From: Chromohalobacter nigrandesensis
Lineage (GTDB): Bacteria > Pseudomonadota > Gammaproteobacteria > Pseudomonadales > Halomonadaceae
Reading direction: 5' to 3'
Length of the DNA: 64,000 bases
Assembly (NCBI RefSeq): GCF_023061285.1
Contig: NZ_JAKGAM010000001.1
Coordinates: 186,001 to 250,000 of the forward strand
Positions 20,830 through 62,394 of this stretch are shown in pieces. The notes under the pieces are model-generated. The model did not search any database and was not told the DNA's origin. It saw only the letters and a list, made by a program, of their open reading frames with translations. The stretch's first letter is position 1. The number at the start of each line of letters is the position of its first letter. The translations under genes and the position numbers were made by a program.

Positions 20830-20892
20830 GCGAGGGCGCTGTAAACCCTTCCCTGGGCGCTACTTTTGCCATCCATGGCAAAAAACCCTCGC
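20830..20892. repeat. Covarying structured repeat, copy A
   Basis: Outer arms GCGAGGG and CCCTCGC (20830-20836, 20886-20892) enclose a constant core and an inner hairpin TTTTGCC-ATCCAT-GGCAAAA (20864-20883). The core holds a three-pair stem, CCC-TTCCCT-GGG. On the minus strand, which is the coding strand of rcpA and tadA, the loops read AUGGAU and AGGGAA. The element lies between the two genes. See copies at 35792 and 62288. Confidence 0.75.
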
Positions 20893-20940
20893 TGCGTCTT
20901 GCCCCCGGCGCCCACTGATTGCCGGATGTAAAATCGACAC

Positions 20941-22326
20941 TCAGTCGCCGAAGCCGACGTTCCCCAGGCGCTCGAGGCTTTCGGCGTCCTGCGGGTCGAA
21001 CAGCAGTTCCAGATACGAGGGGTCGTAGCGACGCAGCGCCTCGCCGGGCAGGTCCGGACGCGGCGCATCCGCCGCCATCGGTGAGACGAGGTGCGGCGTG
21101 ACGACCATCACCAGTTCCTTGTTTTCGGTCTCGAAACGCGTGGAGCGGAAAAACGCGCCGATGATCGGCAGGTCGCCAAGGCCGGGGAACTTGTCCACGG
21201 TCTGCATGGTGCTGTTGCTGACCAGGCCGCTGATGATCAGGCTCTCGCCGTCGCCGAGCTGCACGCTGGTGTCGGTACGCCGCACGTTCAGCGCGGGCAC
21301 GGCAACGCCACTGGCTTGCACGCCTTGCGTGAAGTCGAGTTCGCTGACCTCTGGGGCCACCTTGAGCATGATGCTGTCGTTATCCAGCACCGTGGGCGTC
21401 AGTTGCAGCCTCACCCCGAATTGCTTGAAGTCGATGCGCACGTCGCCATCGTCGTTGCTGATCGGGAAGGGAAATTCGCCACCGGCGAGAAACGAGGCGC
21501 TTTGCCCCGAGAGCGTGACCAGGCTGGGCTCGGCAAGGGTGTAGGCGAAGCCGTTGCTGCGCAGGGCGCTGATCACGCCGAGCATGCTGTCGTCGGCGCT
21601 GCCTCCGACGATGTTGTAGCCACCATCGCCGGTCTGAAAGCCGGAGCCGGTGAGGAAGGAAAAGCCTTCGCTGAAGGTGTCGCCGACGGCCTCGGCACCG
21701 CCCAAGGCGCCGCTGGTACCGACGCCTGCCAGGGTGTTACCGCCGTTATTCTTGCCGAAGAAGAAGCCGGCGGATTGCAGTTTGCTGCGGTTGACCTCGA
21801 CCACGCGGATATCGGTCTGTACCTGGACCGGACCGCTCTGGCGCGTGGCATCGACCGTGTTCTGATCGCCGAGCCGATTGCGCGCCTGGTCATGACGCGA
21901 CAGGGACTCGCTCTCGCCCGAGAGAGTCGGCGTATCGGTGCCGTCGGCCAGGGTGTATTCGGATTCCATACCCCGCGCGCCGCGCGGACGCACCGTGACG
22001 CGATAGTCCCGGGGCTCGTCATCGCCATTGCGCCATACACTCAGCGAGGTCGTCCCCGCCGCCAACCCGGTGACCATGAGTTGACGTGCATCCAGCACCT
22101 GGGCGCTGGCGATATCGCCATCCCCCAGGGCCGTGCGTTCCACGGGGCGGTCGAATGTCAGGCGCTGCTGACCACCGGCATCCAGACGCAGCGTGCGCCC
22201 TTCTTGCCCGTCATCCTGCTGAGCCATCGACACAGCGGAAAATGACAGCGCCAATAAGCACAACAGTCCATACACAGCGCGCTGTCCCACGGCGATGACA
22301 GTCGACGTCGGTAGGTATTGCATCAT
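20941..22326 (-). CDS. rcpA: RcpA/CpaC outer-membrane secretin
   Basis: RcpA forms the outer-membrane channel for the Flp pilus. The 461-residue product has a signal peptide (about 14-35), the secretin-associated N-terminal domain (QRLTFDRPVERTALGDGDIA; VTGLAAGTTSLSVW), and the C-terminal secretin core (about 165-425) with VQVQTDIRVVEVNR, PSLVTLSGQSASFLAGGEFP and the terminal SLIISGLVSNSTMQTVDKFP then LGDLPIIGAFFRS. The order rcpC-rcpA-tadA follows known Tad loci, but rcpB and tadZ are missing. Confidence 0.9.
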   Translation of the reverse strand: MMQYLPTSTVIAVGQRAVYGLLCLLALSFSAVSMAQQDDGQEGRTLRLDAGGQQRLTFDRPVERTALGDGDIASAQVLDARQLMVTGLAAGTTSLSVWRNGDDEPRDYRVTVRPRGARGMESEYTLADGTDTPTLSGESESLSRHDQARNRLGDQNTVDATRQSGPVQVQTDIRVVEVNRSKLQSAGFFFGKNNGGNTLAGVGTSGALGGAEAVGDTFSEGFSFLTGSGFQTGDGGYNIVGGSADDSMLGVISALRSNGFAYTLAEPSLVTLSGQSASFLAGGEFPFPISNDDGDVRIDFKQFGVRLQLTPTVLDNDSIMLKVAPEVSELDFTQGVQASGVAVPALNVRRTDTSVQLGDGESLIISGLVSNSTMQTVDKFPGLGDLPIIGAFFRSTRFETENKELVMVVTPHLVSPMAADAPRPDLPGEALRRYDPSYLELLFDPQDAESLERLGNVGFGD

Positions 22327-22418
22327 GTTTTCCTTCTTCCCTGCATTGGCGCGACATCTAGCATCGGCATGAAGTGTCGCGCTTGTCGTTATCGTGCCGA
22401 CGGCTTTAAAGGCCGTTC

Positions 22419-23432
22419 CTAACGTTGCGTTTCGGTCACCCGACGCTCGCCCCCGACAAATTGCACGACGCGATGGCCGCTTGTTTGCTGGGTTGCGCGA
22501 CGCGGTTCAGCAGGCTGTTGGTTATCGTCGTCGGCTGCGGCGATATCGGCATAGGTGACGGCCGGCGCCAGTTCGTCGTCGTCTCGCGCGCTTTCCTCGC
22601 GTGACGTTTCGCCACCGCTGGCGTCGGACAGGCCCAGTACCATGTCGTCGCCCTGCCCGTCCGGCGCGGTAACGAGATTGGCCATCAAGGCATCGACGCG
22701 CTCGCGACTGCCGACCACGGCCAATCGCAGGCGACCGGTACTTTCGGCCAGTAGCAGCTTGGGAGCCTGCGATTCGTCGACGGCGACCACGGCGGTACGT
22801 GCACCGCGTCGACCGGGACCCTCGTCGTCCTCGTCCTGCGCAGAGGCATCACCGAGACGCTCGCCATAACCGAGCACCAGCACATCGTCGAGCAAACGAC
22901 GCGCCAGCGTTTCGCGACTATCACCGGATGCAGCGGCACGCGCCTGAAACAGCACATCGACTCGGTCACCGGGAGCGATGAAACCGCCGCCACCGATGAC
23001 ATCGTCAACGCCGATAGCCAGGGCGCGGTAGCCCGCCGGAATCTGGCTGGCCAACACGCTACCCAGGGCAAAATCCCCTTCGCGAATCACCTCGCCAGCC
23101 TCGACAGGACGTGTCAGCACGCGCCCATCCAGTGCCTCGCGCTCGGCGAAGCTCTTTGGCAAGGCATTGGGGAAATCCACCACCGCCAGCATCGGCGATC
23201 CCGTGGCATCATCCACCGCATCGTCGGCCGCCAGTTCCGTGCCTTCGCTGAGATCCCGCCTGGCTACCACTGCGGGATGCCGCATATCCGGCGTCTCGGT
23301 AGCCGACTCGACGGCATTTTCCTCTACCGGTGGCGGCGCGGCCTGCTGGGTCAAACGCCAACCGGTGAACCCCAACCCCAGGGCCAAGGCCACCAGCAGC
23401 ACCGCGACGATTTTTAGGGTCTTGGGAGACAT
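22419..23432 (-). CDS. rcpC: RcpC/CpaB pilus assembly protein
   Basis: RcpC is a periplasmic or membrane-anchored factor needed for Flp pilus biogenesis. The 337-residue product has an N-terminal anchor (about 7-26), a SAF domain (VVARRDLSEGTELAADD, near 57-75), and the CpaB core (YRALAIGVDDVIGGGGFIAP, then GDRVDVLFQARA). The C-terminal third is acidic and low in complexity. It starts ten bases after the flp stop and is probably co-transcribed with it. Confidence 0.88.
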   Translation of the reverse strand: MSPKTLKIVAVLLVALALGLGFTGWRLTQQAAPPPVEENAVESATETPDMRHPAVVARRDLSEGTELAADDAVDDATGSPMLAVVDFPNALPKSFAEREALDGRVLTRPVEAGEVIREGDFALGSVLASQIPAGYRALAIGVDDVIGGGGFIAPGDRVDVLFQARAAASGDSRETLARRLLDDVLVLGYGERLGDASAQDEDDEGPGRRGARTAVVAVDESQAPKLLLAESTGRLRLAVVGSRERVDALMANLVTAPDGQGDDMVLGLSDASGGETSREESARDDDELAPAVTYADIAAADDDNQQPAEPRRATQQTSGHRVVQFVGGERRVTETQR

Positions 23433-23442
23433 GGTTTAGCCC

Positions 23443-23706
23443 TTACTCAGTATCAGGGTTTTCCGCCGTTCCAACGGCTTGCGCAATGCTGTCGAAAATG
23501 CCCCCAAATATGTTTTGCAGGCCTTCATCGCCGTTGAAAACCGCGATAATGACTACCGCGACGACACCCGCGATAATCGCGTACTCGATCGCCGTAGCAC
23601 CTTGCTGTCGTTTAAAGCGCGCCTGATTGAGTGTCTTGTTGGCGTGACCCTGCGCCGCGATGCGTTGGGTCAGGGTGGTGAACTTATCGATCAATGAAAT
23701 ACGCAT
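23443..23706 (-). CDS. flp: Flp major pilin
   Basis: The 87-residue product is the Flp pilin. A 35-residue leader ends in KRQQG, followed by the processing motif ATAIEYAIIAGVVAVVII; cleavage after the glycine by a TadV-type prepilin peptidase would release the mature subunit. The leader is longer than in most Flp pilins. No tadV peptidase gene is present in the window, so processing must depend on a gene elsewhere. A 69-base pyrimidine tract lies 45 bases upstream of the start. Confidence 0.9.
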   Translation of the reverse strand: MRISLIDKFTTLTQRIAAQGHANKTLNQARFKRQQGATAIEYAIIAGVVAVVIIAVFNGDEGLQNIFGGIFDSIAQAVGTAENPDTE

Positions 23707-23750
23707 GATGGTTTCCCTGCATTGTGTGATAAGTGTTGTCTTGCTACTTA

Positions 23751-23819
23751 CCTCTTCCTTCTTCTTTCTTTTCTCTTCTCTCTTCCCTCTTCCCTCTTCC
23801 CTCTTCCCTCTCCCTTCTT
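23751..23819. repeat. Uninterrupted pyrimidine tract with CTTCCCT tandem
   Basis: All 69 bases are C or T. Four perfect CTTCCCT units (23782-23809) lie inside it. On the transcribed strand it is a pure purine run between tpsB and flp, in the leader or promoter zone of flp. Such tracts can form triplex DNA, bind CsrA-like proteins through GGA, or vary in length. Confidence 0.7.
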
Positions 23820-23847
23820 ACTGCTGCTTCCTTCTTCATTGACGGCT

Positions 23848-25602
23848 TTAGCCGCCATCGAACTGCCAGGAGACGCGTGCATTGATGCGCCCGTCGCGGT
23901 TATCGGTATCCAGGTCTTCCTCGGCAATGGGACGTGCGTATTCCACGCCTAGCCGGTAGTAGCGGTTGTCGGTGAATTCGAGGCCGAAGGCCGCCGAGGC
24001 GAGGTTGTATTCGATGTCGTTGTCGTGGAAGCGCGTGCGCGCGCCGTCGACGACCAGGTAGGGTTCGACCCGGCTGACCCAGCCCCAGGGCACGGCTTGC
24101 AGAAAGCGCATTTCGATCTCGCCGGCGTAGCCGTAATCCCCTTCGGCCTGGCCATCCGGATAACCGCGCCCGAAGCGTGTACCGCCGTAGTTGCCGCGTT
24201 CGGGCACGGGCAGACTGTCCTCGGCCCAGAAGCCATCCGCGCGGGTGGTAAGACGCCAACGCTCACCCAGCGCTTCTACCCAGCGCCCCTGAAGTCCCAG
24301 ACGGGTGTAACGCAGCGGGTCATCATCGCTCTGGGAAACGCCGGTCGTCTCGATGGTCAGCTCGTTCTTGCTGCCGCCGACTTCGAGCCCTTGGCGCACG
24401 TCGCCGCTGATTTCCCAGAGGCGGTCGTCGCTGACCTGACGGTAACGCGTATTGAGCTCGGCGGTGCCGTAGCGCAGGGATTCATTGGCACGGCTCTCGC
24501 CATTCTCGCTGGTGTAGCGATATTGAGTGTCTTCATCGAGATATTCGACGGCGCCGCCGACTTCCCATAGCGTCTCGCGAGACAATTCGATGGGATATTC
24601 GAGTCCGGCACGATAGCGATAGCGTTCCTTGTCTTCTCGCGCTTCGATGGGCACACCGCGCAACTGGGTGGCGTCGTCGCCGTCGAAGTGCGTCGCCGAA
24701 AGCTTGAGTCGCAGGCCGTCGCTGCCCAGTGCCTGGCTGTATTCGGCGGCGAGGTATTCGTCGTCATCGTCCACGGGTAGCAGGCCGGCCAACGAGAGAC
24801 GCTCGGCGTGCCGCGTATTGCCCTGAGTGGCGATATTGGCCAACGTCTGGGTGTCGTCCTCGTCGTCGTAATTCACGGAGAGCCCGGCGTCGACGCGCTT
24901 TATATCGCGCTCCTCGACACGCACGGTGGTAGCGCCATTGATGGTACGCGGCAACGGCACGTTGACCGACAGGCTGGCGCCGGGAATACGTTCGATCAGG
25001 GCGGTATAGCGCTCGAAACGCTCGCGGCGCAGCGGACGCTCCTCGGCCATGCGCTCGATCAAGCGCTGAACGCGAGCCGCCACGGCATCGTTGTCGATAT
25101 CCAGCTCGGCGCGGGCGATATAGCCTTCGACCACGACCACCTCGACATTGCCGTTGGCGAAGTTATCCGCCGGCAGGTAGGCATAAGAAATCGGGTAGCC
25201 GGCGTTCTGATAGCGCTCGGTGATGCGCCTCACGGCCTTGTTGATACGACCGACGGTGACCGTTTCTCCCACCAACGACTTGAGAGGCGCGGCCAGCTCA
25301 TCGAGCTCAAACACCGAGCCGCCCCGGATATTGATATGTCGGACGTTGACCTGCGCATTCTCCGACACACCCGGTGCCGAATCCGGCTGCTGTACGTTGA
25401 GGTCCAGTGTACGTTGGCGTTCCTGCTGCTCTTGTTGCTCGCGCGTGGCGGTCGGCGAGCGTTCATCGATGAAGGAGGGGACGACATCGTCGGCCATGAG
25501 CGAACCACTGTGGCCGATCAGCACGATGGCCAGGCAACCCAGCAGCGATTCAGACAGCGGGCGACGGCGTTCGTCGCGACGAAGACGCAGCAATGACGGC
25601 AT
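23848..25602 (-). CDS. TpsB/ShlB-family outer-membrane translocator
   Basis: This is a two-partner-secretion translocator of the ShlB/FhaC/HecB type. The 584-residue product has a signal peptide (to about 37), a Gln-rich linker helix, a POTRA_2 domain (about 87-165, VNVRHINIRGGSVFELDELA), a ShlB POTRA region, and a C-terminal 16-strand barrel (about 230-584). The barrel includes the conserved L6 motif GGTRFGRGYPDGQ near residue 475. No TpsA with a haemagglutinin-type TPS domain is next to it. Instead the upstream gene in the same direction is a glycine-rich lipoprotein, and the Flp pilus genes follow. The cargo is therefore open. Confidence 0.87.
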   Translation of the reverse strand: MPSLLRLRRDERRRPLSESLLGCLAIVLIGHSGSLMADDVVPSFIDERSPTATREQQEQQERQRTLDLNVQQPDSAPGVSENAQVNVRHINIRGGSVFELDELAAPLKSLVGETVTVGRINKAVRRITERYQNAGYPISYAYLPADNFANGNVEVVVVEGYIARAELDIDNDAVAARVQRLIERMAEERPLRRERFERYTALIERIPGASLSVNVPLPRTINGATTVRVEERDIKRVDAGLSVNYDDEDDTQTLANIATQGNTRHAERLSLAGLLPVDDDDEYLAAEYSQALGSDGLRLKLSATHFDGDDATQLRGVPIEAREDKERYRYRAGLEYPIELSRETLWEVGGAVEYLDEDTQYRYTSENGESRANESLRYGTAELNTRYRQVSDDRLWEISGDVRQGLEVGGSKNELTIETTGVSQSDDDPLRYTRLGLQGRWVEALGERWRLTTRADGFWAEDSLPVPERGNYGGTRFGRGYPDGQAEGDYGYAGEIEMRFLQAVPWGWVSRVEPYLVVDGARTRFHDNDIEYNLASAAFGLEFTDNRYYRLGVEYARPIAEEDLDTDNRDGRINARVSWQFDGG

Positions 25603-25686
25603 ATTGTAGCTTCCCTGTGTGTGTCTTGTCGGAGCCGCTCGTTATTGTGTCGATGGCGACTCTCGTGGCGGTGCAGCGCACCGTGA

Positions 25687-25714
25687 GTGCCCTCATGGCA
25701 GGCCATGAGGGCAC
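25687..25714. terminator. Hairpin between lipoprotein gene and tpsB
   Basis: GTGCCCTCATGG and CCATGAGGGCAC form a perfect 12-base stem with loop CAGG. There is no T-run, so it may be a partial terminator or an mRNA 3' stabiliser that lowers tpsB expression relative to the lipoprotein. Confidence 0.5.
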
Positions 25715-25753
25715 CTTGCCTACGTTCGCTTCAGTGATGAGCGATAGTGGGCA

Positions 25754-27091
25754 TTAGCGTTCGCCTCCTCCCAGCAGTCCACCAAGAAGGCCGCCTGCGA
25801 GACCATTGCTCTCGCTACCTTGATCGGTGCCGCCATTGTCCGAACCGGCACCGCCACTCAGGCCACCGGTCACGCCGGAGACGGAATCAGTCACACCGCC
25901 GACCAAGCCGCCGACGAGGCCTTTGCTGCTGTCGCCGCCGTCGCTCGAGCCACCACCGGTCAAGCCGCCCGTGGACTCGGTCAATCCACCGACGAGGCCG
26001 CCGACCAGACCTTGGCTACCACCGTTTTCGCCACCGCCGGTCACGCCACCGAGGAGGCCGCCTTCACCACCGGTAAGACCGCTGAGCAGGCCACCGCCTT
26101 CGCCATCGGCGTTGCCGCCCGTCACACCACCGAGGAGGCCGCCTTCGCCACCGGTAAGACCGCTGAGCAGACCGCCATTACCGCCTTCTCCGTTGGTCGC
26201 GACGCCGCCCAGGTCAGCCACGGCATTGCCTACGCCTTGCAGGGTTCCGCCAAGGCCACCTAACGCTTCGGAACGATCGCCGACACGGCCACCGAGCTGT
26301 GTGACGACGCCCCCGACCGATGTCAGCAAGCCGTCAACGGGTTGGCCGACGCCAAGTCCATCACCCAGCGTTTGCGTGGTGCCTTCGAGATTGGTGACCA
26401 ATGGCCGTACGACCCCCGTCACTTCGGTGGTCAGCCCGCTGAGGTGGCCGTCTTCGGCGGTCAAGGAAGACGTCAGCGATCCCGCCGTCGAGCTCAGTGC
26501 CACCCCAAGCTGGTTGACCGTGTCGCCGGCCCCCGAAACCAGGTTGGTACGTTCGTCGACCTGGCCGACGACCGGTAGGGTATTCAACCCCGTGACAATA
26601 GTGCTGGCGGAGGAAACCGCTTCACCGACTTCTCCCACCGTCGATGTCGCGCCGCCGAGCGTGGTACCTAGCGCATTGTCATTCTCGCTCAGATCCCCGA
26701 CCCCATTACGTAGGCCATCACTGAGACTGTTGACACCTTCCCCGACATCGACGACGGCATTTCCGGCGCCATCAGTGACAAAGCCTGCGCCACCGACATC
26801 GGATTGCGAGATGGCCTCACCCGCGCCGACAACGGTATCGCCGACACCGGTAGTGCCATCGCCAGTATCGGAAACGACCTCTTCGACCGCTGTGGAATTA
26901 TCTCCACCATCGCCATTGTTGCCGTCGCCGCCATTGTTGCCGTCGCCACCGCCGTTGTTGTCACCCATGTCAGGACCATCGCCCGCGCCACCATCCATGG
27001 GTTGAGACTCGGATGAACTGCCACTGCAACCGCTCAGGACCAGTGCCAATACGACCGTTGTCAGTGCCGGTATCTTGAGTTCCCCAAGCAT
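25754..27091 (-). CDS. Glycine-rich repeat lipoprotein
   Basis: The 445-residue product has a lipoprotein signal with lipobox LVLSGC (Cys about 21) and a long low-complexity chain. First comes an Asp/Asn/Gly segment (about 30-65, GDNNGGGDGNNGGDGNNGDG), then a Val/Thr/Gly region with heptad-like VGE/VGD spacing, then Gly-Leu repeats. GGLLSGLTGGEGGLLGGVTG occurs twice in tandem, followed by GLVGGLVGG variants. Such proteins are sometimes labelled collagen-like, but there is no strict G-x-y periodicity. GGAGG precedes the ATG at 27091. It heads the transcription unit that runs into tpsB and flp, so it may be a surface or matrix component handled by the TpsB channel; that link is inferred. Confidence 0.72.
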   Translation of the reverse strand: MLGELKIPALTTVVLALVLSGCSGSSSESQPMDGGAGDGPDMGDNNGGGDGNNGGDGNNGDGGDNSTAVEEVVSDTGDGTTGVGDTVVGAGEAISQSDVGGAGFVTDGAGNAVVDVGEGVNSLSDGLRNGVGDLSENDNALGTTLGGATSTVGEVGEAVSSASTIVTGLNTLPVVGQVDERTNLVSGAGDTVNQLGVALSSTAGSLTSSLTAEDGHLSGLTTEVTGVVRPLVTNLEGTTQTLGDGLGVGQPVDGLLTSVGGVVTQLGGRVGDRSEALGGLGGTLQGVGNAVADLGGVATNGEGGNGGLLSGLTGGEGGLLGGVTGGNADGEGGGLLSGLTGGEGGLLGGVTGGGENGGSQGLVGGLVGGLTESTGGLTGGGSSDGGDSSKGLVGGLVGGVTDSVSGVTGGLSGGAGSDNGGTDQGSESNGLAGGLLGGLLGGGER

Positions 27092-27620
27092 CTCGACCTC
27101 CATTAATTATCGTTTACTGTCTACGGTTTTCCGTGTAGCGGCTGGTAGAGCATTGACCCTCATATTGCTCACTTTGACCGCCTCTCATCTTTCAAATGAA
27201 TGAGATTTCGTCTCATTTACGCAGGAGATATCCAAAATAAAAGACAGCCCCCTTACACTATTTTCTTCTTATTAGCCAGCTAACTTTACCTAAAAAATCC
27301 TATAGAACGCTGTTTTTTATACATATATTCTTTGAAATAACTGTATACACCCCCAGCATCCCACCTTTCTTTAAGATAAAGGGAGCCACTTTCGCTTTCT
27401 TTACTAGAAAGCAATCTACAAACTTAACTATTGATTAAATCACAAAATATTCTATATAAATCATCCTTTTTATCCGAATTTCGTACTATCCTTTACACTC
27501 TTTGCATATTAGGGTTCTCATCCTTTTAGGCTTTGCAATTCTGATCATCATCTCGGTATTTACAGATTGAGTCAGAAATGACTTACAAAGTAAGACGCAA
27601 AAAACCAAGGGGAAGCATGT
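27092..27620. other. AT-rich divergent intergenic region
   Basis: The gap between the leftward lipoprotein gene and the rightward AraC-type gene is strongly AT-rich from about 27230 to 27560, unlike the rest of the window. It contains AATGAGA-TTTCG-TCTCATT (27199-27217), a perfect 7-5-7 inverted repeat about 110 bases before the lipoprotein start, and several TATA-like boxes. It probably carries both promoters and is a likely target of the MvaT protein encoded 1 kb away. Confidence 0.5.
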
Positions 27621-28478: not shown

Positions 28479-28504
28479 CTCGCCAGCTCGTCCAGGAGCA
28501 AATA

Positions 28505-28538
28505 AAAAAAGGCTGATGCTCTAAAGCATCAGCCTTTT
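28505..28538. terminator. Bidirectional intrinsic terminator
   Basis: AAGGCTGATGCT and AGCATCAGCCTT form a perfect 12-base stem with loop CTAA, flanked by A and T runs on both sides. It serves the AraC-type gene on the plus strand and mvaT on the minus strand. Confidence 0.85.
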
Positions 28539-28602
28539 CCAGACAGTACGGCTTGGCGTACTTAGCGCGCTTTCACTGGAAAGCGCTTATCCGCAAAGAC
28601 GC

Positions 28603-30510: not shown

Positions 30511-30559
30511 TGCCGTGTTCCCGTTGAGTGTGTTGTATGAAAAGAGCGAGATACTAACA

Positions 30560-30624
30560 GAAGTGGCCATCGGAAGTGGCCATCGGAAGTGGCCATCGGA
30601 AGTGGCCATCGGAAGCGGCTATCA
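30560..30624. repeat. 13-base tandem repeat upstream of the antiporter
   Basis: GAAGTGGCCATCG is repeated four times exactly (30560-30611) and once in degenerate form. It ends 50 bases before the antiporter start on the minus strand, in the position expected for its promoter or leader, so copy number could alter expression. Confidence 0.8.
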
Positions 30625-30721
30625 AAAGTCGCCATGAAAACGTCACATCCGCGACGCGACATTGTCATGAAGACGGATTACAACGGGGGGCGACAATCAA
30701 TGGTCAAGCAAGCCATTGCTT

Positions 30722-35785: not shown

Positions 35786-35791
35786 CACGTC

Positions 35792-35882
35792 GGTGGTAAG
35801 CCTTTGCGAGGGCGCTGTAAACCCTTCCCTGGGCGCTACATTCGTCTTCCATGACGAATGACCCTCGCACCGGCTTACCACC
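35792..35882. repeat. Covarying structured repeat, copy B
   Basis: Outermost arms GGTGGTAAGCC and GGCTTACCACC pair perfectly (35792-35802, 35872-35882). Next TGCGAGGG pairs with CCCTCGCA. Inside are the constant core with CCC-TTCCCT-GGG and an inner hairpin ATTCGTC-TTCCAT-GACGAAT (35840-35859). The element sits between convergent amiD and the XRE-cupin gene; on the strand of the latter the loops read AUGGAA and AGGGAA. Confidence 0.78.
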
Positions 35883-35903
35883 GCGCGGCGCAACAACCCT
35901 GGA

Positions 35904-50653: not shown

Positions 50654-50671
50654 GCGCCATGGCAGGCGCCA

Positions 50672-53145: not shown

Positions 53146-53156
53146 GGCTATGATTC

Positions 53157-54977: not shown

Positions 54978-55145
54978 CGAGTCCTACCTGAGTCAGAAAC
55001 ACGATCCGGCCAAGCAATACCGTTAGCAGTGGTCAAGCCCGAAAGGCTGCTAGGCGAGCGTACGCGGACCGATGGACAATTCAATTGAAAGGCATTGTAC
55101 CGGCAAGCACCTTCCATGGACAGCGAGGACGTGCGATCGACGCGA

Positions 55146-55171
55146 CGAGGCCCCGACAGAGCGGGGCCTCG
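55146..55171. terminator. Terminator after degP
   Basis: CGAGGCCCC and GGGGCCTCG form a GC-rich stem with an extra G-C pair and a six-base loop. On the minus strand it ends the degP unit before lepA; the T-run is weak. Confidence 0.65.
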
Positions 55172-55199
55172 ATTCCTGGCATCGGCAGCCAATCCGGCT

Positions 55200-56633
55200 T
55201 CAGTCGCCGTCGGACTGCAGCCGCAGCGCCACGAACAGCGAACGCCCTTCGCGAACGATACGCACCGGGATGGCGCGATCGGTAGGCGCATTCTTCACCG
55301 CCTCGATCAGGGCATCGGTGTCCTCGATGGAGGTGCTATCGAAGCTGACGATGACGTCGCCACGCGCGATTCCGGCAGCGGCTGCGGCGCCGCGCGGATC
55401 GAGCTGGCGCACCACGACGCCGTTGTCGACGTCGAGTTGACTGCGCATCCGATCGTCGAGATCACTGACCGCAACGCCCAGGCGCGCTTGGCTGTCGTTT
55501 TTGGAGTGCTGCTGGTCGGAAGCCATTTTGCCCTCTTCCGGCCAGTTACCCACGGTGACCTCGATTTCCTGGGGATCGCCGTCACGCAGAATGTTCAGCG
55601 TCACTTCATCGCCAGGCGACACACGGCCCACCAATCGCGGCAAAGTACTGGAGTCCTCAACTTCGTCGTCGTCGACCGCCAGCACCACATCGCCGGCCTT
55701 GAGTCCGGCCTCGCTGGCAGGGCTGCCATCGGTGACGTCGGCAATCAACGCACCGCGCGTATCGTCGAGCCCGAAGGATTCCGCCAGATCGTTCGACACG
55801 GGCTGAATCACCACCCCGAGCCAGCCACGGCTGACGTGTCCGGCGTCTTTCAACTGATCGGCGATATCCATCGCCACATTGATCGGGATGGCGAAGGAGA
55901 TTCCCATGAAACCACCGCTGCGGGTATAGATCTGCGAGTTGATGCCCACGACCTCACCGTCGAGATTGAACAAGGGCCCGCCGGAGTTGCCGGGGTTGAT
56001 CGCCACATCGGTCTGAATGAAGGGCACATAGGCATCGCTCGGCAAGGTACGGTCGATCGCACTGACAATGCCGGAGGTTACCGAGTGATCGAAGCCGAAG
56101 GGCGAGCCGATGGCGGCGACCCATTGGCCGACCTGCAGCTTGTCGGAGTCACCCATGTCGAGCGTCGGCAAATCGTCGGCGTCGACCTTGAGCACGGCGA
56201 CATCGGTCTTCTTGTCGGCACCCACCAGTGTCGCCTCGAGCTCGCGGCGATCGTTGAGCCGCACCACGATCTCATCGGCGCCATCCACCACATGGGCGTT
56301 GGTCATGATGTAGCCGTCATGGCTGATCACGAACCCCGAGCCCAACGAATGGCGTTTCTCGCTTCCGCGATCGGGGCCTCTCGGCACCATGGGCGGCATC
56401 TGATCGCCGAAGAAGCGCCGAAAAATCTCGGGAACGTCCTGTTCTCCGAATGGCGAGCCCTGCATGGCCCGTGTATCGACCTTACTGGTAGTGGAAATGT
56501 TGACGACGCCCGGCGCGGCGTCTTCGACCAATTGGGTGAAATTCGGCAATTCGCGTGCCTGAGCGAACTGCGCGGCGCATAGCGCAATAAACGCAAATAA
56601 CAGCGGGGTGACATAACGAGAGAAACGTTGCAT
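55200..56633 (-). CDS. mucD: DegP/MucD periplasmic serine protease
   Basis: This HtrA-family protease degrades misfolded envelope proteins. The 477-residue product has a signal peptide (to about 27), a trypsin-like domain with the triad H114 (TNAHVV), D144 (KTDVAV) and S217 (GNSGGP), and two PDZ domains (about 270-360 and 385-475). AGGAG precedes the ATG at 56633. It follows mucA in the algU-mucA series and corresponds to MucD of Pseudomonas, which also lowers AlgU activity. mucB and mucC, which usually lie between, are absent. Confidence 0.95.
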   Translation of the reverse strand: MQRFSRYVTPLLFAFIALCAAQFAQARELPNFTQLVEDAAPGVVNISTTSKVDTRAMQGSPFGEQDVPEIFRRFFGDQMPPMVPRGPDRGSEKRHSLGSGFVISHDGYIMTNAHVVDGADEIVVRLNDRRELEATLVGADKKTDVAVLKVDADDLPTLDMGDSDKLQVGQWVAAIGSPFGFDHSVTSGIVSAIDRTLPSDAYVPFIQTDVAINPGNSGGPLFNLDGEVVGINSQIYTRSGGFMGISFAIPINVAMDIADQLKDAGHVSRGWLGVVIQPVSNDLAESFGLDDTRGALIADVTDGSPASEAGLKAGDVVLAVDDDEVEDSSTLPRLVGRVSPGDEVTLNILRDGDPQEIEVTVGNWPEEGKMASDQQHSKNDSQARLGVAVSDLDDRMRSQLDVDNGVVVRQLDPRGAAAAAGIARGDVIVSFDSTSIEDTDALIEAVKNAPTDRAIPVRIVREGRSLFVALRLQSDGD

Positions 56634-56757
56634 GAAAAACTCCTGATACAAAGCGTGAACTCGTTAACCAAAACGAGGAGTCACATTGACAATATGCCGG
56701 TGCGCATTACCGGCTTAGCATAGATCGACAACCAAGAAACCTGGCGTCGACAGTTAC

Positions 56758-56784
56758 ATTGATACACTAACGGGACAAGAGTTC
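56758..56784 (-). promoter_or_regulatory. Candidate AlgU-type promoter of degP/mucD
   Basis: On the minus strand GAACTC (56784-56779) and TCAAT (56762-56758) are 16 bases apart, close to the sigma-E/AlgU pattern GAACTT-N16-TCTGA/TCAAA. It is about 125 bases upstream of the start and downstream of the mucA terminator, so degP can be expressed separately from algU-mucA. Confidence 0.35.
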
Positions 56785-56865
56785 ACTGGACAGCATAATT
56801 AGTTCAGCACCACTCGTTCAATATGTAGCCCTGACTGCTGCACAGCATCGACGAATCGCCAAACG

Positions 56866-56902
56866 AAAAAAGGCGCGCCCCTGATGACAGGTGACGCGCC
56901 TT
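56866..56902 (-). terminator. Terminator of algU-mucA
   Basis: AAGGCGCG and CGCGCCTT pair, with CCCTG/CAGG extending the stem. On the minus strand a six-T run follows, giving a good intrinsic terminator 50 bases after mucA. Confidence 0.8.
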
Positions 56903-56951
56903 GGCACGGCGTCGAGGGAATCGTCACAAGTGGACGACAGACTTCATGGAA

Positions 56952-57725
56952 TTAACGCTGACCCGACGCCTCGGCGCCCGCACCATCGAGTGAGCGAGAA
57001 GACGACATCCAAGCCTCGCTCGCACCGTCAGACTGCTGCTGGTTCAGGTATGTCTGCAGAAGGCGCGCCTGTTCATGGTCGCTGCGTGAGGCCTGACGTG
57101 GAGAGTCGGAAAAGAGCGACGCGTCCATGCTGGCTTCCATGGCACCGCCGGGGCCCGAAGGCGCGAGGCTGGGAAATACTGTATTCGCCCCTGATGAGGT
57201 CAAGAACCCGGTACCCTCACCGCCGAAGCTCGCGAGTCTGGCACCAACACCGCCCCCCGAGGGCGCGCTCTGCAGCGATGCTGGCTGCACGTTGGCGCCG
57301 CCCTCGGCGGAAGGCGTCTCACCGGAAGCGGCATTACCGCTGGCGAACTCGGTCCCCTCACCGCTGACACCGCTCGGCGAGTTGGCGTTATACACCTGGA
57401 CACCGGTGATGACCATCAGCGACACCGCAGCGGCGATCGCAGCGCTACCGGCAAAGGAGAACGGCACCGCACGGCGCGTGCCAGATGTCGCCGACTCCTG
57501 CACCTCAGGCTCGTCGGCAAGGCGTGCCATGATGCCGGCGGACAGATCCGCACTGACATCCACACCGCGATCACGCTGCATCATGCTGCGCGCCAAGTGA
57601 TAACGTCGCCATGTGTCGGCGTCTTCAGGGGCGTCTTGCAACGACCTCATGACACGGCGTATCTCGAGCTCGTCGCCCTCATTATCCATCAGCGCGGACA
57701 AGGACTCTCGTACGTTCTGATTCAT
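56952..57725 (-). CDS. mucA: MucA/RseA-type anti-sigma factor
   Basis: The 257-residue inner-membrane protein should hold AlgU inactive until envelope stress triggers its cleavage. The N-terminal part (about 1-85) is an RseA/MucA domain (MNQNVRESLSALMDNEGDEL; DTWRRYHLARSMMQRD). A membrane segment follows at about 92-112. The periplasmic part is long and rich in Gly, Ser and Ala, with little similarity to the MucB-binding region of Pseudomonas MucA. It is directly downstream of algU and is followed by a terminator. With no mucB next to it, the signal that frees AlgU may be wired differently. Confidence 0.85.
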   Translation of the reverse strand: MNQNVRESLSALMDNEGDELEIRRVMRSLQDAPEDADTWRRYHLARSMMQRDRGVDVSADLSAGIMARLADEPEVQESATSGTRRAVPFSFAGSAAIAAAVSLMVITGVQVYNANSPSGVSGEGTEFASGNAASGETPSAEGGANVQPASLQSAPSGGGVGARLASFGGEGTGFLTSSGANTVFPSLAPSGPGGAMEASMDASLFSDSPRQASRSDHEQARLLQTYLNQQQSDGASEAWMSSSRSLDGAGAEASGQR

Positions 57726-57947
57726 ACTTACCCCCTCACATTCGAGAAGACGAATGCCTATCGTCTACTGGGCGCTACGCAGCGGTTCACGTGTGGCAAT
57801 ACCTTTTCTTGATATCTTGCACGATTATCCTGCCCACCTGACACGGTAGCGCCCACTCATTCCACTGGTACTCGTTGAGACGTCAAAGTCGCCGGACAGT
57901 TCACTTTTGAATGCGTCGCGCGACACTTTTTTTATCATCCCACTCGG

Positions 57948-58553
57948 TCATTCGACCGTGGCATCGGCCTGGCGCGGCGCGTTCAGCATCGGCTCGATGG
58001 CTTTGTCCACCGCCTCGCGCGCCCTGAAGATGCGTGAACGTACCGTCCCCACCGGGCACTGCATGATATTGGCGATATCTTCATAGGCGAGCCCGTCCAT
58101 TTCGCGCAAGGTAATCGCGGTGCGCAGATCTTCCGGCAGGTTTTCGATGGTCTCGAACACTACCGCCTCAAGCTGATCGCGCTGCAAGGCGGCTTCCGGG
58201 GTTTCTATATCGGAAAGACGACCGCTATGGTCGAGCACCTCGGCGTCCGCGATGTCCATGTCGTTGCCCGGTGGCCGGCGGCCACGAGACACCAGGTGAT
58301 TCTTGGCGGTATTGATAGCGATGCGGTACATCCACGTATAAAAAGCACTATCGGAACGAAACTTGCCCAAGGCACGATAGGCCTTGATGAAGGCTTCCTG
58401 CGCGACATCCTGCACTTCGGCGGGATCATGCACATAACGCCCGATCAGGCCGAGAATCTTGTGCTGGTACTTCTTGACCAGGAGATCGAAAGCCCGAGTG
58501 TCCCCCTTCTGGGCACGCTCGACGAGCTGGTGATCGGTTTCCCTAGTGCCCAT
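57948..58553 (-). CDS. algU: Extracytoplasmic sigma factor AlgU/RpoE
   Basis: The 201-residue sigma factor of the RpoE/AlgU group directs the envelope-stress response. Region 2 (about 10-90) contains the family block RAFDLLVKKYQHKILGLIGR and AFYTWMYRIAINTAKNHLVS. Region 4 (about 130-190) contains LPEDLRTAITLREMDGLAYE and DIANIMQCPVGTVRSRIFRA. Length and sequence are very close to Pseudomonas AlgU. mucA follows after 222 bases, an unusually wide gap for this pair. Confidence 0.95.
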   Translation of the reverse strand: MGTRETDHQLVERAQKGDTRAFDLLVKKYQHKILGLIGRYVHDPAEVQDVAQEAFIKAYRALGKFRSDSAFYTWMYRIAINTAKNHLVSRGRRPPGNDMDIADAEVLDHSGRLSDIETPEAALQRDQLEAVVFETIENLPEDLRTAITLREMDGLAYEDIANIMQCPVGTVRSRIFRAREAVDKAIEPMLNAPRQADATVE

Positions 58554-58940
58554 TCATTCTTCCCCCATGCCGGAGGCACTATAAAGCGAAGCGCCGACAA
58601 CGGCGCCAGCGCAGGAAAATTGTATCTGCTGTGTGGTCATCATGTTCCAGTCGAGCCCACGGGGCGCTGAATGATCGAGGTAATGGATGAAGTTGGGCGA
58701 AGACCTGCGGTCATGTGGCCGATCCACTTGCTTGATTTAAGTAGGACCTAGTGTTCCTTTTTCTGCCCGCCCCATCAAGGTGATAAAGCGGCGGATGCGC
58801 TTATGGCATCCAGACATTGACCGTCATCATCGCGAGAAGTTCGGCCATGAGATTGATTTTCCCGGCGCCAACAAGCGATAGTAGCGCTTTATCGCAAGCG
58901 AAACCGATGCCCTTCGCGACACATATCTACAGGTAGCGGA
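58554..58940. other. Divergent region between algU and aroF
   Basis: Both promoters should lie here. On the minus strand a TATAGT about 30 bases before algU could be a -10. GCGATA and TATCGC form an inverted repeat around nine bases (near 58875-58895), upstream of aroF. I see no gene and no convincing attenuator peptide. Confidence 0.35.
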
Positions 58941-60020
58941 ATGTCAGAACAGCACGTCAATAACATTAACGTCCTTTCCCAGGACGTCCTGGTCACACCC
59001 GAAGCGCTCAAGCGTGAAATTCCCCTTTCCGAGGAGGCCGAACGTACGGTACTCGAGGGGCGCCGAACCGTTCAACGGATTATCGACGGCGACGACCCGC
59101 GCCTCGTCGTCGTCATCGGTCCTTGCTCGATCCACGATGTGGAGGCGGCACGCGATTATGCTCGTCGCCTGAGCCAGTTGGCCGATGAGGTGAGCGATAG
59201 CCTGTACGTGGTCATGCGCGTGTATTTCGAGAAGCCACGCACCACCGTCGGCTGGAAGGGTCTGATCAACGACCCGCACCTCGACGACACCTTCGATATC
59301 CAGGAAGGGCTGCGCACTGCTCGGCGCCTATTGGTGGAGCTCGCCGAAATGGGCCTGCCATTGGCCACCGAGGCGCTCGACCCCATCTCACCGCAGTATC
59401 TGCAGGATTGCATCAGCTGGTCGGCCATCGGGGCACGCACCACCGAGTCCCAGACACACCGTGAGATGGCGTCCGGCTTGTCGTCGCCGGTGGGCTTCAA
59501 GAACGGCACCGATGGCAGTCTCGATGTCGCGGTCAACGCGCTCAAGTCGGTTGCCCACCCGCACAACTTTCTGGGTATCGACCAGGGTGGACAAGTTGCC
59601 GTGATTCGCACGCGCGGCAATGCCTATGGCCATATCGTGTTGCGCGGCGGTAACGGCAAGCCCAATTACGACAGCGTCAGCGTTGCCCTCGCCGACAAGG
59701 AGCTGCGCAAGGCAGGCGTGATACCCAACATCATGGTCGACTGCTCGCACGCCAACTCCAACAAGGATCCGTCTCTGCAGTCCTTGGTGATGGATAACAT
59801 CGCCAACCAGATCCTCGAGGGCAACACCTCGATCATGGGGCTGATGGTCGAGTCGCACATCGGCTGGGGCAACCAGAAGATCCCCGAGGATCGCTCGCAA
59901 CTAGAGTACGGTGTTTCCATCACCGATGCCTGCATCGACTGGCCGACCACCGAAACGGCCATGCGCGAGATGAACGAGAAGTTGAAACCGGCACTGAGCC
60001 AGCGCCAGCGCGGCGAATAA
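58941..60020 (+). CDS. aroF: DAHP synthase, AroF (tyrosine-sensitive) type
   Basis: This enzyme condenses PEP and erythrose 4-phosphate in the first step of the shikimate pathway. The 359-residue class I-alpha protein has LVVVIGPCSIHD, VMRVYFEKPRTTVGWKGLIN, SWSAIGARTTESQTHREMAS and the metal-site HANSNKD. N-terminal NNINVLSQDVLVTPEALKRE and LPLATEALDPISPQYL match E. coli AroF better than AroG or AroH, so tyrosine inhibition is predicted but not proven. It is a single gene. Confidence 0.93.
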   Translation: MSEQHVNNINVLSQDVLVTPEALKREIPLSEEAERTVLEGRRTVQRIIDGDDPRLVVVIGPCSIHDVEAARDYARRLSQLADEVSDSLYVVMRVYFEKPRTTVGWKGLINDPHLDDTFDIQEGLRTARRLLVELAEMGLPLATEALDPISPQYLQDCISWSAIGARTTESQTHREMASGLSSPVGFKNGTDGSLDVAVNALKSVAHPHNFLGIDQGGQVAVIRTRGNAYGHIVLRGGNGKPNYDSVSVALADKELRKAGVIPNIMVDCSHANSNKDPSLQSLVMDNIANQILEGNTSIMGLMVESHIGWGNQKIPEDRSQLEYGVSITDACIDWPTTETAMREMNEKLKPALSQRQRGE

Positions 60021-60030
60021 GTGCACTTCC

Positions 60031-60054
60031 CCGGCCCCGCCTGTCGCGGGGTCG
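60031..60054. terminator. Weak hairpin after aroF
   Basis: GGCCCCGC and GCGGGGTC can pair (one G-T) around a five-base loop just after the aroF stop. No T-run follows, so termination here is possible rather than clear. Confidence 0.4.
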
Positions 60055-60123
60055 GCGCCTACCTTCTAGCCTACCGCGCTTCCGAGCGGTGCGTCTGTGA
60101 GCAGTACGCTTGTAAGCAGTGCG

Positions 60124-62268
60124 CTACTGCGCCATGCCGTCGATTTCACGCCGGAAAGGTGGTAACGAGTCGAGCAGCGCGCGTCCATAACGACGCGTCA
60201 GAACACGGCGGTCGAGCAATGTGATGCGCCCCTGATCGGCTTCCTTGCGGATCAAACGACCGCAAGCCTGCACCAAGCGAATTGAGGCATCCGGTACCGA
60301 GATGCGCATGAACGGATTCCCGCCTCGGCTTTCGATCCACTCCGCCAGGGTCGCCCCCACCGGATCGTCGGGCACGGAAAACGGCAAGCGGGTGATTACC
60401 ACGTGAGTGAGATACTCGCCCGGCAGGTCGATCCCTTCGGCGAAACTGGCCAGCCCGAAGATGATACTGCCCTCCCCGGCATCGACGCGCGCACGATGAC
60501 GCTGCAGCAATTCACGCTTGGGCAGGTGATTCTGCGCCGACACGCGCTGACGCACCGCCTCCGGCAGCGCCTCGAGCACCGCGCGCATCTGCTTGCGTGA
60601 CGAGAACAGCATGAGTACGGCTTCGCGCTCCCCCAGCGCTTGGGTGAAATCGATCAGCGCGCGCTCGTGGGCCTCGCGATTGCTGGGGTCGACGGCCTCC
60701 GGCGGCACACTGAGCACCGCCCGCGAATAATCGAACGGGCTGGGCAGGCGTTGATAACGATAGCGGTTGGCAAGCCCGGCGCGTTCTTGCAAGCGCTCGA
60801 AGCGATTGAGCGCGGTCAGCGTCGCCGAGGTCACCACCGCGCCATAGCACGTACCCCACAAATGCCGGGCCAAGGTCTCGGCAGCCGACACGGGGCTTGC
60901 CGAAAACGTCAACTCCGCCTCGCCGGCGACACGTTCGAAGGTTAGCCAACGTGCCTGCGGCACGCCGTCTTCGGGGTCCGCCGTGGCCAACGCCTGCCAC
61001 AAGGCATGTGCTTCCTGCGCACGGCCATGCAACAGGGCGATCAGCGGCAGCCAGGCCTCGGCCTGTTCGCGCGGCAAGCCGGTAGCCTTTTCCGGATCGA
61101 GGCTCTCGCGCAGGATATCGGCCATGCTCTCGAGCGTGCGCGACAACTCGGCAAAGGCCGTCACCATCGCTCCAGCCTGCTCGGAAAGCGCCTCGGGCAC
61201 GCGCCCCATGGGGAAACGATGGTGCACAGCATCGGTCGCGTCGTCGGGAAGGCCTTCCTCGCGTTCGGCGATGCGATGGCCCATGGCGAAGGCCTCGCCG
61301 AGGCGCGGCTCCAGCGCGGCGATGGCTTCCGGCAGGCTACCCAGCAAACGCGCCAGGGTCGGCTGCACGGCCAGCGCGGTATTGAGCTCGGTGAGCGACT
61401 TCTTCAGCGTGCGCAGCCAGCGCAGCGTGCCGTTGACGGGCAGGCGATGATAAAAGTGATCGAGCGCCTTGTCGGGCAGATGGTGGCCTTCATCGAAGAC
61501 GTAGATGCATTCCTTGGGCGAGGGCAATACCAGCCCACCGCCCAGGGAAAGATCCGCCAGCACGAGGTCGTGATTAGCGACGATGATATCGGCCTGGTCG
61601 AGCCCGCGGCGGGCACGAAAGAAGGCGCAGGCGCCGAAGTGGCCACAGCGGCGATTGGTGCACTGGCGATGATCGATGGTCAGGCGGCGCCAATCCGCAT
61701 CGTCGATCCCCGTCGGCCAGCTATCGCGATCACCCTCCCAGCGCCCTGCCGAGTAGGCCTCGGCCATTTCGTGCGCCAGGGCCTGGAAGTCGTCACCGTC
61801 GCGCGACGTCATCGCTTCTTCGAAAAGCGACAGCGTGGGGTTGTCTTCCCCACCTTCCAGGACTTGATCGAGCCGCGCCACGCACAGATAGCGCCCCCGC
61901 CCCTTGGCCAGGGCGTATTCAAAATCGAGACCGCTATGTGCCTTGAGCGCCGGCAGGTCGTGATGCAGCACCTGCTCTTGCAGCGCCACCGTAGCAGTGG
62001 AAATCACCAGGCGCTTGCCCCGTGCCTGGGCGATGGGCAGTGCGGCAAGCAAATAGGCCAGCGTCTTGCCGGTGCCGGTACCCGCCTCGAGCACACAGAC
62101 ATGCTCGTTGGAGAGGCGTCGCCCGGCGTCATCCGCCTCGATGCCACCCAGGGTCCGAGCGATCTCGGCGATCATCAAGCGCTGTCCATAACGCGGCGTC
62201 AGCTCGAGTCCATCGAGCACGCAGCGATAGGCGGTCTGTATCTCGTCCTTCAGGGCCTCATCAAGCAT
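60124..62268 (-). CDS. dinG: DinG-family ATP-dependent DNA helicase
   Basis: DinG is a 5'-3' iron-sulfur helicase that unwinds D-loops, R-loops and forks. The 714-residue product has Walker A in EAGTGTGKTLAYLL, a DEAH-like VFDEGHH, cluster cysteines in LCVARL and QCTNRRCGHFGACAFF, and C-terminal motifs (VITRLPFSVPDDP, VQACGRLIRKEADQGRI). The ATG at 62268 is preferred; a longer frame runs back through the structured repeat. No ordinary ribosome site is visible, and the repeat (62288-62394) ends only 20 bases before the start, so translation may be controlled by that structure. In E. coli dinG is SOS-induced; no LexA box was seen here. Confidence 0.92.
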   Translation of the reverse strand: MLDEALKDEIQTAYRCVLDGLELTPRYGQRLMIAEIARTLGGIEADDAGRRLSNEHVCVLEAGTGTGKTLAYLLAALPIAQARGKRLVISTATVALQEQVLHHDLPALKAHSGLDFEYALAKGRGRYLCVARLDQVLEGGEDNPTLSLFEEAMTSRDGDDFQALAHEMAEAYSAGRWEGDRDSWPTGIDDADWRRLTIDHRQCTNRRCGHFGACAFFRARRGLDQADIIVANHDLVLADLSLGGGLVLPSPKECIYVFDEGHHLPDKALDHFYHRLPVNGTLRWLRTLKKSLTELNTALAVQPTLARLLGSLPEAIAALEPRLGEAFAMGHRIAEREEGLPDDATDAVHHRFPMGRVPEALSEQAGAMVTAFAELSRTLESMADILRESLDPEKATGLPREQAEAWLPLIALLHGRAQEAHALWQALATADPEDGVPQARWLTFERVAGEAELTFSASPVSAAETLARHLWGTCYGAVVTSATLTALNRFERLQERAGLANRYRYQRLPSPFDYSRAVLSVPPEAVDPSNREAHERALIDFTQALGEREAVLMLFSSRKQMRAVLEALPEAVRQRVSAQNHLPKRELLQRHRARVDAGEGSIIFGLASFAEGIDLPGEYLTHVVITRLPFSVPDDPVGATLAEWIESRGGNPFMRISVPDASIRLVQACGRLIRKEADQGRITLLDRRVLTRRYGRALLDSLPPFRREIDGMAQ

Positions 62269-62287
62269 GATGCATCCATAAAGAAGC

Positions 62288-62394
62288 GCGGCGACGGGGA
62301 CAGGCCGACGCGGAGGTGCTGTAAACCCTTTCCTGGGCACTACCGATTCCTTCCCTGGAATCGGACCTCCACTCTGGCCTGTCCTCGTCGCCGC
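62288..62394. repeat. Covarying structured repeat, copy C
   Basis: A 19-base outer stem (62288-62306 with 62376-62394) pairs with one mismatch. GGAGGT pairs with ACCTCC inside it. Then come the core with CCC-TTTCCT-GGG and the inner hairpin CGATTCC-TTCCCT-GGAATCG (62344-62363). On the minus strand, shared by rhlB and dinG, the loops read AGGGAA and AGGAAA. The element lies immediately before dinG. Confidence 0.78.

Follow-up and report, generated by a model that had tools for sequence, protein, structure and literature searches.

What kind of element recurs three times, as two hairpins on a common stem, in a 64-kb stretch of the Chromohalobacter nigrandesensis genome (the window), and on which strand is its fold under constraint? 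The three copies, described in an earlier note, were all recovered, and the core pattern with up to three mismatches occurs three times in the window vs. not once in 100 shuffled sequences. The R1 covariance model, whose training set includes them, scores copies A, B, and C at 95.3, 108.7, and 102.2 bits, respectively. At the gathering level of Rfam, only cspA was matched elsewhere in the window.

Each copy is ~100 nt long and has two hairpins besides its outer stem: an inner one with a loop of 6 nt and a core one with a CCC/GGG stem; all three copies are minus-strand features. The model match of copy A covers 20813..20910. By coordinates read from the sequence, its outer stem is 20830-20836/20885-20891, its core hairpin has the stem 20846-20848/20855-20857 and the loop 20849-20854 (AGGGAA on the minus strand), and its inner hairpin has the stem 20864-20870/20877-20883 and the loop 20871-20876 (minus ATGGAT). 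Copy B is matched at 35788..35886, with an outer stem (35806-35812/35862-35868) within a longer stem (35791-35812/35862-35883), a core loop at 35825-35830 (minus AGGGAA), and an inner hairpin with the stem 35840-35846/35853-35859 and the loop 35847-35852 (minus ATGGAA). The match of copy C, 62292..62390, is exceeded by its outer stem, which reaches 62288-62394; its core loop lies at 62329-62334 (minus AGGAAA, outside ANGGAN) and its inner hairpin has the stem 62344-62350/62357-62363 and the loop 62351-62356 (minus AGGGAA). The conserved core string, made up of the bulge, the hairpin, and CTAC, was matched by the core pattern on the plus strand at 20838..20863 (A), 35814..35839 (B), and 62318..62343 (C). 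Thus, five of the six minus-strand loops read ANGGAN, as had been claimed, the exception being the core loop of copy C, so that this copy keeps only one of the two CsrA-motif loops found in nearly all copies. Within the 64 kb, CANGGANG sites spaced 10-30 nt apart form a pair nowhere but at copies A and B, on the minus strand.

The stems had been said to differ completely. This is true of the inner stems and of copy C, but the outer stems of copies A and B are near-identical. That the stems covary was borne out with 12 copies of this genome, in which both sides have changed at 18 of 32 pairs, vs. 8.9 in shuffles, and 90.0% of the cells are paired, vs. 79.4%; further pair types showed no excess (27 vs. 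26.3 in shuffles of the same 12 copies). Minus-strand RNA folding gave z-scores of -3.8 (A), -7.3 (B), and -8.9 (C), and plus-strand folding gave -2.8, -7.7, and -9.9, so the strand is left undecided by the folding of single copies.

A covariance-model search of halomonad genomes, as the earlier note had proposed, found further copies within the family, and the element also occurs beyond it. This genome has 14 copies. All 10 genomes of the genus carry the element, as do 48 of the 81 family genomes, where a single genome can hold as many as 74 copies, and 21 of the 274 class genomes. They are multi-copy, mostly intergenic, and patchy between species, and this spread together with the covariation supports the view of a dispersed structured element. 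An origin of the arms from target DNA alone is not supported, since the arms of copies in the same genome are partly alike. One tandem site holds a copy in nine of the genus's ten genomes, with the tenth not recovered, and in a single genome of another genus; these copies lie in either orientation, and two of them are truncated. At orthologous places, in a survey whose detection pattern missed 18 of 96 loci, the element is absent, truncated, or present either way round. Sites devoid of it are rearranged, and neither a clean empty site nor a target duplication was found, so the case for mobility has to be made from copy number and patchiness. Viral carriage was rejected, as two pattern scans of viral contigs gave no match. 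The only two plasmid records matched were a 1.8-Mb Halomonas replicon, at 11 places, and a Vibrio record, weakly; a plasmid search with a 43-nt core query returned seven records, at an E-value of 0.6 only. A distant-mode search with one class-level copy gave no match in E. coli.

Mostly outside Halomonadaceae, the element takes a more general form, in which the core stands on an outer stem of 25-31 bp and of nearly free sequence. Among the matches listed, the general-type set numbers 117 copies plus four at contig edges, and it includes about seven halomonad loci (Bisbaumannia, Halomonas, Franzmannia). Gene context was counted for the 102 copies with 400 nt on both sides, and of these the 82 whose stems have 20 pairs or more served for mismatches and stems. 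In these 82, among the matches listed, 1906 of 2050 outer-stem cells are paired, vs. 823 when shuffled. The 30 nearest general-type pairs, among the matches listed, differ by 171 double Watson-Crick changes vs. 32 one-sided ones; in halomonad copies the two kinds are about equal (65 double vs. 63 one-sided). No conserved word or flank stood out outside the stem among the matches listed. Since the copies are related, neither these nor the other counts are independent.

Because the general-type search pattern fixes the loops, as well as the bulge, the junction, and the loop spacing, the conservation of these parts was taken from copies found by R1, itself trained on copies with these loops. The ANGGAN form pointed out in the note is kept by both loops in nearly all copies, R1-found samples included: 67 of 67 core and 64 of 67 inner loops in a sample of 67 further copies, drawn from the best 60 regions of a score-ranked list; 20 of 20 and 18 of 20 in 20 of the 28 class-level loci; and 63 of 67 for either loop in the loop-table tally of 67 halomonad copies. 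Both hairpins are closed by a C-G pair in 65 of these 67, and variation in halomonad loops is confined to the two N's of ANGGAN. By coordinates, the loops are spaced by 22 nt in copies A-C and by 24 in RU-2; the 23-nt spacing in the 67-copy loop table was set by the search pattern. ANGGAN is the CsrA/RsmA motif, displayed in hairpin hexaloops of RsmZ/RsmY/CsrB-type RNAs according to the accessible part of PMC3791407. The longer consensus RUACARGGAUGU, as quoted in an excerpt of PMC4347634, occurs on the minus strand of 22 of the 102 general-type copies and on the plus strand of none, among the matches listed and with part of the 12-mer fixed by the pattern.

The strand of the constrained fold is revealed by its mismatches. 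In the general type, plus-strand A.C outnumber G.T mismatches 62 to 10 (37 vs. 2 copies), among the matches listed. Further counts of the same types gave 55 vs. 22 and, separately, 26 vs. 10 copies, and the 67 further copies gave 41 vs. 6 (27 vs. 4 copies). Read on the minus strand, the excess is of the G.U type, far above the mirror type. It is present in every gene context, including copies where the minus strand is antisense (20 vs. 1). The fold under constraint is thus shown to be the minus-strand one. A folded single strand of DNA would fit the G.U excess as well, since G.T is only mildly disruptive there too. More generally, the strand bias of mismatches offers a means of telling which strand of a dispersed palindrome is folded and selected.

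The earlier note took the minus strand to be the sense strand of the neighboring genes. This is so on both flanks of copy A (secretin and T2SSE-type ATPase genes) and of copy C (genes for a DEAD helicase and for a DinG-like helicase, whose longest open frame, 60124-62340, overlaps the copy and whose true start is uncertain); copy B sits between convergent amidase and XRE-cupin genes. Among the copies of this genome, the minus strand is sense at eight tandem sites and antisense at one, three copies lie between convergent genes, and two are uncalled. The genus sample leans the same way at tandem sites (40 vs. 12 in a set of 67 copies that includes many orthologues), and eight other halomonad genomes gave 31 vs. 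21. An orientation bias, for which the note had proposed a test, thus appears in this genome and genus and is missing from the general type (32 vs. 29 among the matches listed), many copies of which therefore need not be transcribed from the minus strand. The gene callers behind these counts are simple codon-usage scripts; one such crude script placed 10 of 67 halomonad copies inside genes and left four uncalled, which is why the later halomonad run calls each side separately. Among the matches listed, 100 of the 102 general-type copies lie outside called genes, with more at convergent (27) than at divergent (12) sites; a second halomonad sample showed no convergent excess (5 vs. 6). Relative to replication, 26 of 41 copies listed are co-oriented, which is not significant, in the six of ten genomes checked that have dnaA motifs at the contig start, with the terminus assumed at half length.

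From sequence comparison, the repeat is best read as a dispersed hairpin of the YPAL type; we consider it somewhat probable that it is a mobile element and that CsrA would bind the RNA folded from its minus strand. The predicted fold is a three-way junction, in which an outer stem of free but complementary sequence bears two hairpins, one of them with a one-sided bulge. Copies would spread as a non-autonomous mobile element by means of some enzyme, and the minus-strand RNA, when made, may be held by a CsrA/RsmA dimer through both loops. Selection on the fold would then act mainly for the spreading element and weakly for the adjoining host gene. In minus-sense copies such as A and C, the hairpin could offer CsrA a place for landing or titration, and it could also be an mRNA end or an intercistronic stabilizer. 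If this is one gamma-proteobacterial family with a conserved paired CsrA site, a mobile repeat scatters sites for a global regulator in genomes, which has to be reckoned with when sRNAs are counted or CsrA targets mapped. A SINE-like reading, which we put forward only tentatively, would have a class-wide, non-coding mobile hairpin cycle through a folded minus-strand RNA with a paired CsrA/RsmA dock, its dozens of copies per genome both depending on the regulator and titrating it; YPAL/Ysr224 would then be reinterpreted as well.

The element may instead be a hairpin transposon at the DNA level, which we regard as possible but doubtful: the minus strand would fold as single-stranded DNA, a transposase would read the two like-looped hairpins, and the match to the CsrA motif would be a coincidence. 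IS200/IS605-type enzymes do recognize paired hairpins. The mismatch counts fit, as G.T is tolerable in folded DNA, and so do the even gene orientation of the general type, among the matches listed, and the GTAG beside the hairpin in the window copies, a REP tag (PMC3733652, as excerpted). Against this, the Y1 transposase domain PF01797 is missing from this genome and from element-rich ones such as G055 and G078; it occurs in 15 of the 48 genomes that carry the element and in 9 of the 33 that lack it, an absence of association that led us to reject RAYT/REP mobilization. The lack of viral matches in both scans and the mere two plasmid records also count against a DNA transposon, as does the fact that halomonad loops vary at just the two places where the CsrA motif has an N. 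A hairpin at mRNA ends or between cistrons that works either way round, as a stabilizer or processing site of the kind proposed for YPAL, with the GGA loops secondary, seems rather unlikely to us. It would suit the intergenic location and convergent excess of the general type, among the matches listed, the tandem site filled in either orientation across nine genomes of the genus and one of another, and the reported association of YPAL with upstream transcripts (PMC2229807), but it leaves the one-strand mismatch bias and the kept loops unexplained, its convergent excess is not found in the second halomonad sample, and stems of 25-31 bp seem longer than stabilization requires.

The reading of the earlier note, a cis-acting CsrA site kept for adjacent genes, draws on the minus-sense lean of tandem copies, 8 of 9 here and 40 vs. 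12 in the genus, where many are orthologues. Elsewhere the lean weakens (31 vs. 21 in the eight other halomonad genomes) or vanishes (32 vs. 29 in the general type, among the matches listed), copies are flipped at orthologous sites, and the mismatch bias persists where the minus strand is antisense, so that this part of the claim holds only weakly, and we judge such a site very improbable. Palindromes perfected solely by template switching during replication, with a fold free of selection, would account for the preponderance of double changes between the nearest general-type copies among the matches listed (171 vs. 32), but not for the near-equality in halomonad copies (65 vs. 63), nor for constant loops beside variable inner stems in model-found copies. 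The strongly one-sided mismatches contradict it too, because such correction should be strand-blind, and we give this mechanism hardly any credence.

The favored reading of a mobile CsrA-binding hairpin builds on a kinship that the earlier note, which could name no published family, had missed: YPAL/RU-2 of Yersinia and Ysr224 of Rfam share the core and the fold. By these sequence features, the three repeats are small, dispersed hairpin-forming elements of the YPAL/RU-2/Ysr224 kind. All have, on the minus strand and in the same order, CGTC, a hairpin with an ANGGAN loop, TCGAGC, a second such hairpin, a TTTAC bulge, and GGCG; all are mostly intergenic and multi-copy with a similar fold. The YPAL unit measures about 167-168 bp and has a target site duplication of 3-26 bp; one halomonad subfamily shares 164-168 nt, and the general type has no conserved word beyond its stem, among the matches listed. 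The printed 168-nt RU-2 shows the same fold, with CANGGANG at 74 and 98, TCGAGC, and TTTACGGCG. The Rfam model RF02770 and R1 match the same places (G172:C2:103358 vs. 103338, G150:C92:17624 vs. 17603, G174:C11:52975 vs. 52954). The best RF02770 score is 38 bits against a gathering cut-off of 70, with none of 94 genomes above the cut-off, and copies A and C score 18.4 and 12.9 bits. Halomonad copies thus differ from YPAL in lying far under the Ysr224 cut-off, as well as in their CTAC (minus GTAG) at the junction and in that no target duplication was found. A free outer stem and class-wide spread are absent from the published descriptions of YPAL, as far as their accessible text goes. This text reports YPAL from Yersinia and Erwinia carotovora (PMC2229807) and places Ysr224 among the 20 most prevalent sRNAs (PMC9029176). 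No halomonad or Marinobacter version of YPAL and no CsrA link was found among the literature matches listed; a search with core strings gave PMC2759123 as the sole bacterial match, and a MITE review (PMC10969869) mentions neither YPAL, RU-2, Halomonas, nor CsrA.

Two other kinds of system invite comparison. RsmZ/RsmY/CsrB-type sponge RNAs likewise present ANGGAN hexaloops in hairpins; they are dedicated sRNA genes, whereas the halomonad element is a dispersed repeat. TwoAYGGAY (RF01731) and Bacillaceae-1 RNAs, proposed to bind CsrA, have two motif matches each, like the halomonad element; the accessible part of PMC4333381 does not present them as mobile repeats dispersed in genomes. Copies A and C matched neither model at E-values up to 10, and copy B did not match RF01731 at the gathering level. 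Among small repeats, ERIC/IRU elements are 127 bp long. GTAG- or CGTC-tagged REPs and BIMEs, which lie between tandem and convergent genes (PMC3733652, in part), are similar in being short dispersed palindromes with such tags at such sites. The present element is without their link to Y1 transposase genes, and REPs are single hairpins of 20-40 bp, whereas it is a three-way junction of ~100 nt.

The three repeats placed by the earlier note at 20830, 35792 and 62288 of the window (copies A, B and C) are real and were correctly described, as inspection of the sequence at each place confirmed. Their 26-nt core did not occur in shuffles of the window, and RNA energy folding gave structures stabler than those of shuffled sequence on both strands. 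The home genome (3.64 Mb in 50 contigs) carries the core pattern at 12 places, and a covariance model built on these matched 14. The covariation read from the stems also stands, these 12 copies exceeding shuffles in all pair measures but one, the number of further pair types. Elsewhere in the window lie a 13-bp tandem repeat (unit GAAGTGGCCATCG, 30547-30648), a minus-strand match to the cspA thermoregulator RNA just above its cut-off (10510-10922; 79 versus 78 bits), and two 140-nt direct repeats, 95% alike and 1178 nt apart (3748-3887 and 4926-5065).

R1, a covariance model trained on copies including A-C, matched all 10 genomes of the genus at E 0.01, with 3-16 matches each, some of which hit a palindromic copy on its other strand. 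The search of Halomonadaceae that the earlier note had suggested found further copies at E 0.001 in 48 of 81 genomes and 14 of 24 genera, with up to 74 matches in the richest genome; at E 1e-4, 21 of 274 genomes of the class were matched. These class-level copies gave a general pattern, whose core was fixed for searching while the arms and inner stems were left free. A strict pattern detected at least 120 stretches in named genomes, the genera among the matches listed being Marinobacter, Alteromonas, Halomonas, Bisbaumannia, Parahaliea, Cellvibrio, Pseudoxanthomonas, Allochromatium, Halorhodospira and others. Viral contigs contained no match in either of two scans by pattern.

Read on the minus strand, the general pattern consists of CGTC, a hairpin with an ANGGAN loop, GTCGAGC, a second such hairpin, a TTYAC bulge and RGCG, with outer arms flanking both ends. 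Copies of the halomonad type, those of the window included, have GTAG and a slightly altered junction. The outer stem spans 25-31 bp in 66 of 102 pattern-found copies (ungapped measure, counted by hand). At the middle positions of this stem, the four Watson-Crick pairs are about equally common across 82 copies, and pairing is still 93-98%; the arms are only partly common to copies of one genome. Nearest general-type copies differ by 171 double, pairing-preserving changes versus 32 one-sided ones, and nearest halomonad copies about equally by both (65 versus 63). Four copies (L025 1501-1651, L273, and 150-nt matches in G003:C34 and G002:C1:2437586) contain some 52 extra nt, which in L025 and L273 sit inside the inner hexaloop and include a hairpin of their own, nested there in opposite orientation and with an ATGGAT loop. 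The long perfect stem of one class-level copy (L096 1496-1607) matches mir-2041, a model of an animal microRNA, on both strands but under its cut-off, a match that is probably spurious.

Nearly all general-type copies (100/102) lie outside called genes, 29 between tandem genes with the minus strand antisense, 32 with it sense, 27 at convergent and 12 at divergent sites. A bias of the minus strand toward the sense of its neighbors is absent from the general type, but halomonad copies do lean that way. A first set, in part orthologous, has 40 sense versus 12 antisense copies, with 11 at convergent and 3 at divergent sites; a second has 31 versus 21, with 5 and 6. Orthologous places can hold the element flipped: G008 and G004 do so at the site of copy B, and three further sets show it too. 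Five genus genomes lack the element at copy B's site, and there the two genes adjoin directly. At one site between tandem genes, the element is present in 9 of 10 genus genomes (the G008 site was not recovered) and in one genome of another genus, with differing subfamilies and both orientations, truncated in G001 and G009 and degraded in G005. In G007 and G009, another copy's site lacks the element, but the spacer is rearranged. At the site of the home-genome copy G000:C12:4639, G006 has another palindrome-rich sequence, with the end GCAGCCATTTTCAG, in the element's place (L289/L309).

Mismatches in the stems are unevenly distributed between the strands. On the plus strand, A.C outnumbers G.T by 62 to 10 in 82 general-type copies (37 copies versus 2), by 55 to 22 in 67 halomonad copies (26 versus 10) and by 41 to 6 in 67 further ones from eight other genomes (27 versus 4). 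Because a plus-strand A.C is a minus-strand G.U, the protected fold is that of the minus strand. The excess appears in tandem contexts with the minus strand sense (12 versus 2) or antisense (20 versus 1) and at convergent (23 versus 5) and divergent sites (5 versus 2); being present in every gene context, it is not set by transcription of neighboring genes. Other C-containing plus-strand mismatches, G.A and G.G on the minus strand, are likewise in excess; they may persist as the remaining mild mismatches, though something else might explain their excess. Energy folding of A-C alone showed no preference for the minus strand. RNA rather than DNA would be the form under selection; the main rival is a DNA-hairpin transposon, read by some enzyme.

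The loop motif is kept in nearly all copies. ANGGAN occupies the core and inner loops in 63/67 and 63/67 copies of the first halomonad set, 67/67 and 64/67 of the second, and 20/20 and 18/20 of the class-level loci (20 of 28 used); variation in the halomonad sets falls mainly at the two N positions, and C-G closes both hairpins in 65/67 copies of the first. According to the parts of the sources consulted, ANGGAN is the recognition motif of RsmA-family proteins (PMC3791407), SELEX with CsrA produced RUACARGGAUGU, its GGA lying in hairpin loops (PMC4347634), and Halomonas hydrothermalis CsrA is listed at 86% identity to that of E. coli (PMC12889724). The full 12-mer, partly fixed by the search pattern, occurs in 22/102 general-type copies on the minus strand and in 0/102 on the plus strand. 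Most likely, the element is a hairpin that spreads as a mobile unit and that binds CsrA in the form of folded minus-strand RNA: an enzyme would presumably move the element, and CsrA would be the partner of its RNA.

In the YPAL and element literature searched, partial texts included, class-wide spread, a free outer stem, a one-strand mismatch bias and paired ANGGAN loops were not found. The portions consulted equate RU-2 of Y. pestis with YPAL (PMC2759123) and describe YPAL insertion at or near dyad symmetry, with 3-26 bp duplications (PMC2229807). The earlier note could name no published family, but a known kind fits the repeats. Although the curated cut-off is not reached and no target duplication was seen, the window copies are members of the known YPAL/RU-2/Ysr224 kind, because matches to RF02770 (Ysr224), scoring below that cut-off, coincide with the element's places and Y. 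pestis RU-2, on the strand as printed, has a string and a kind of fold in common with them.
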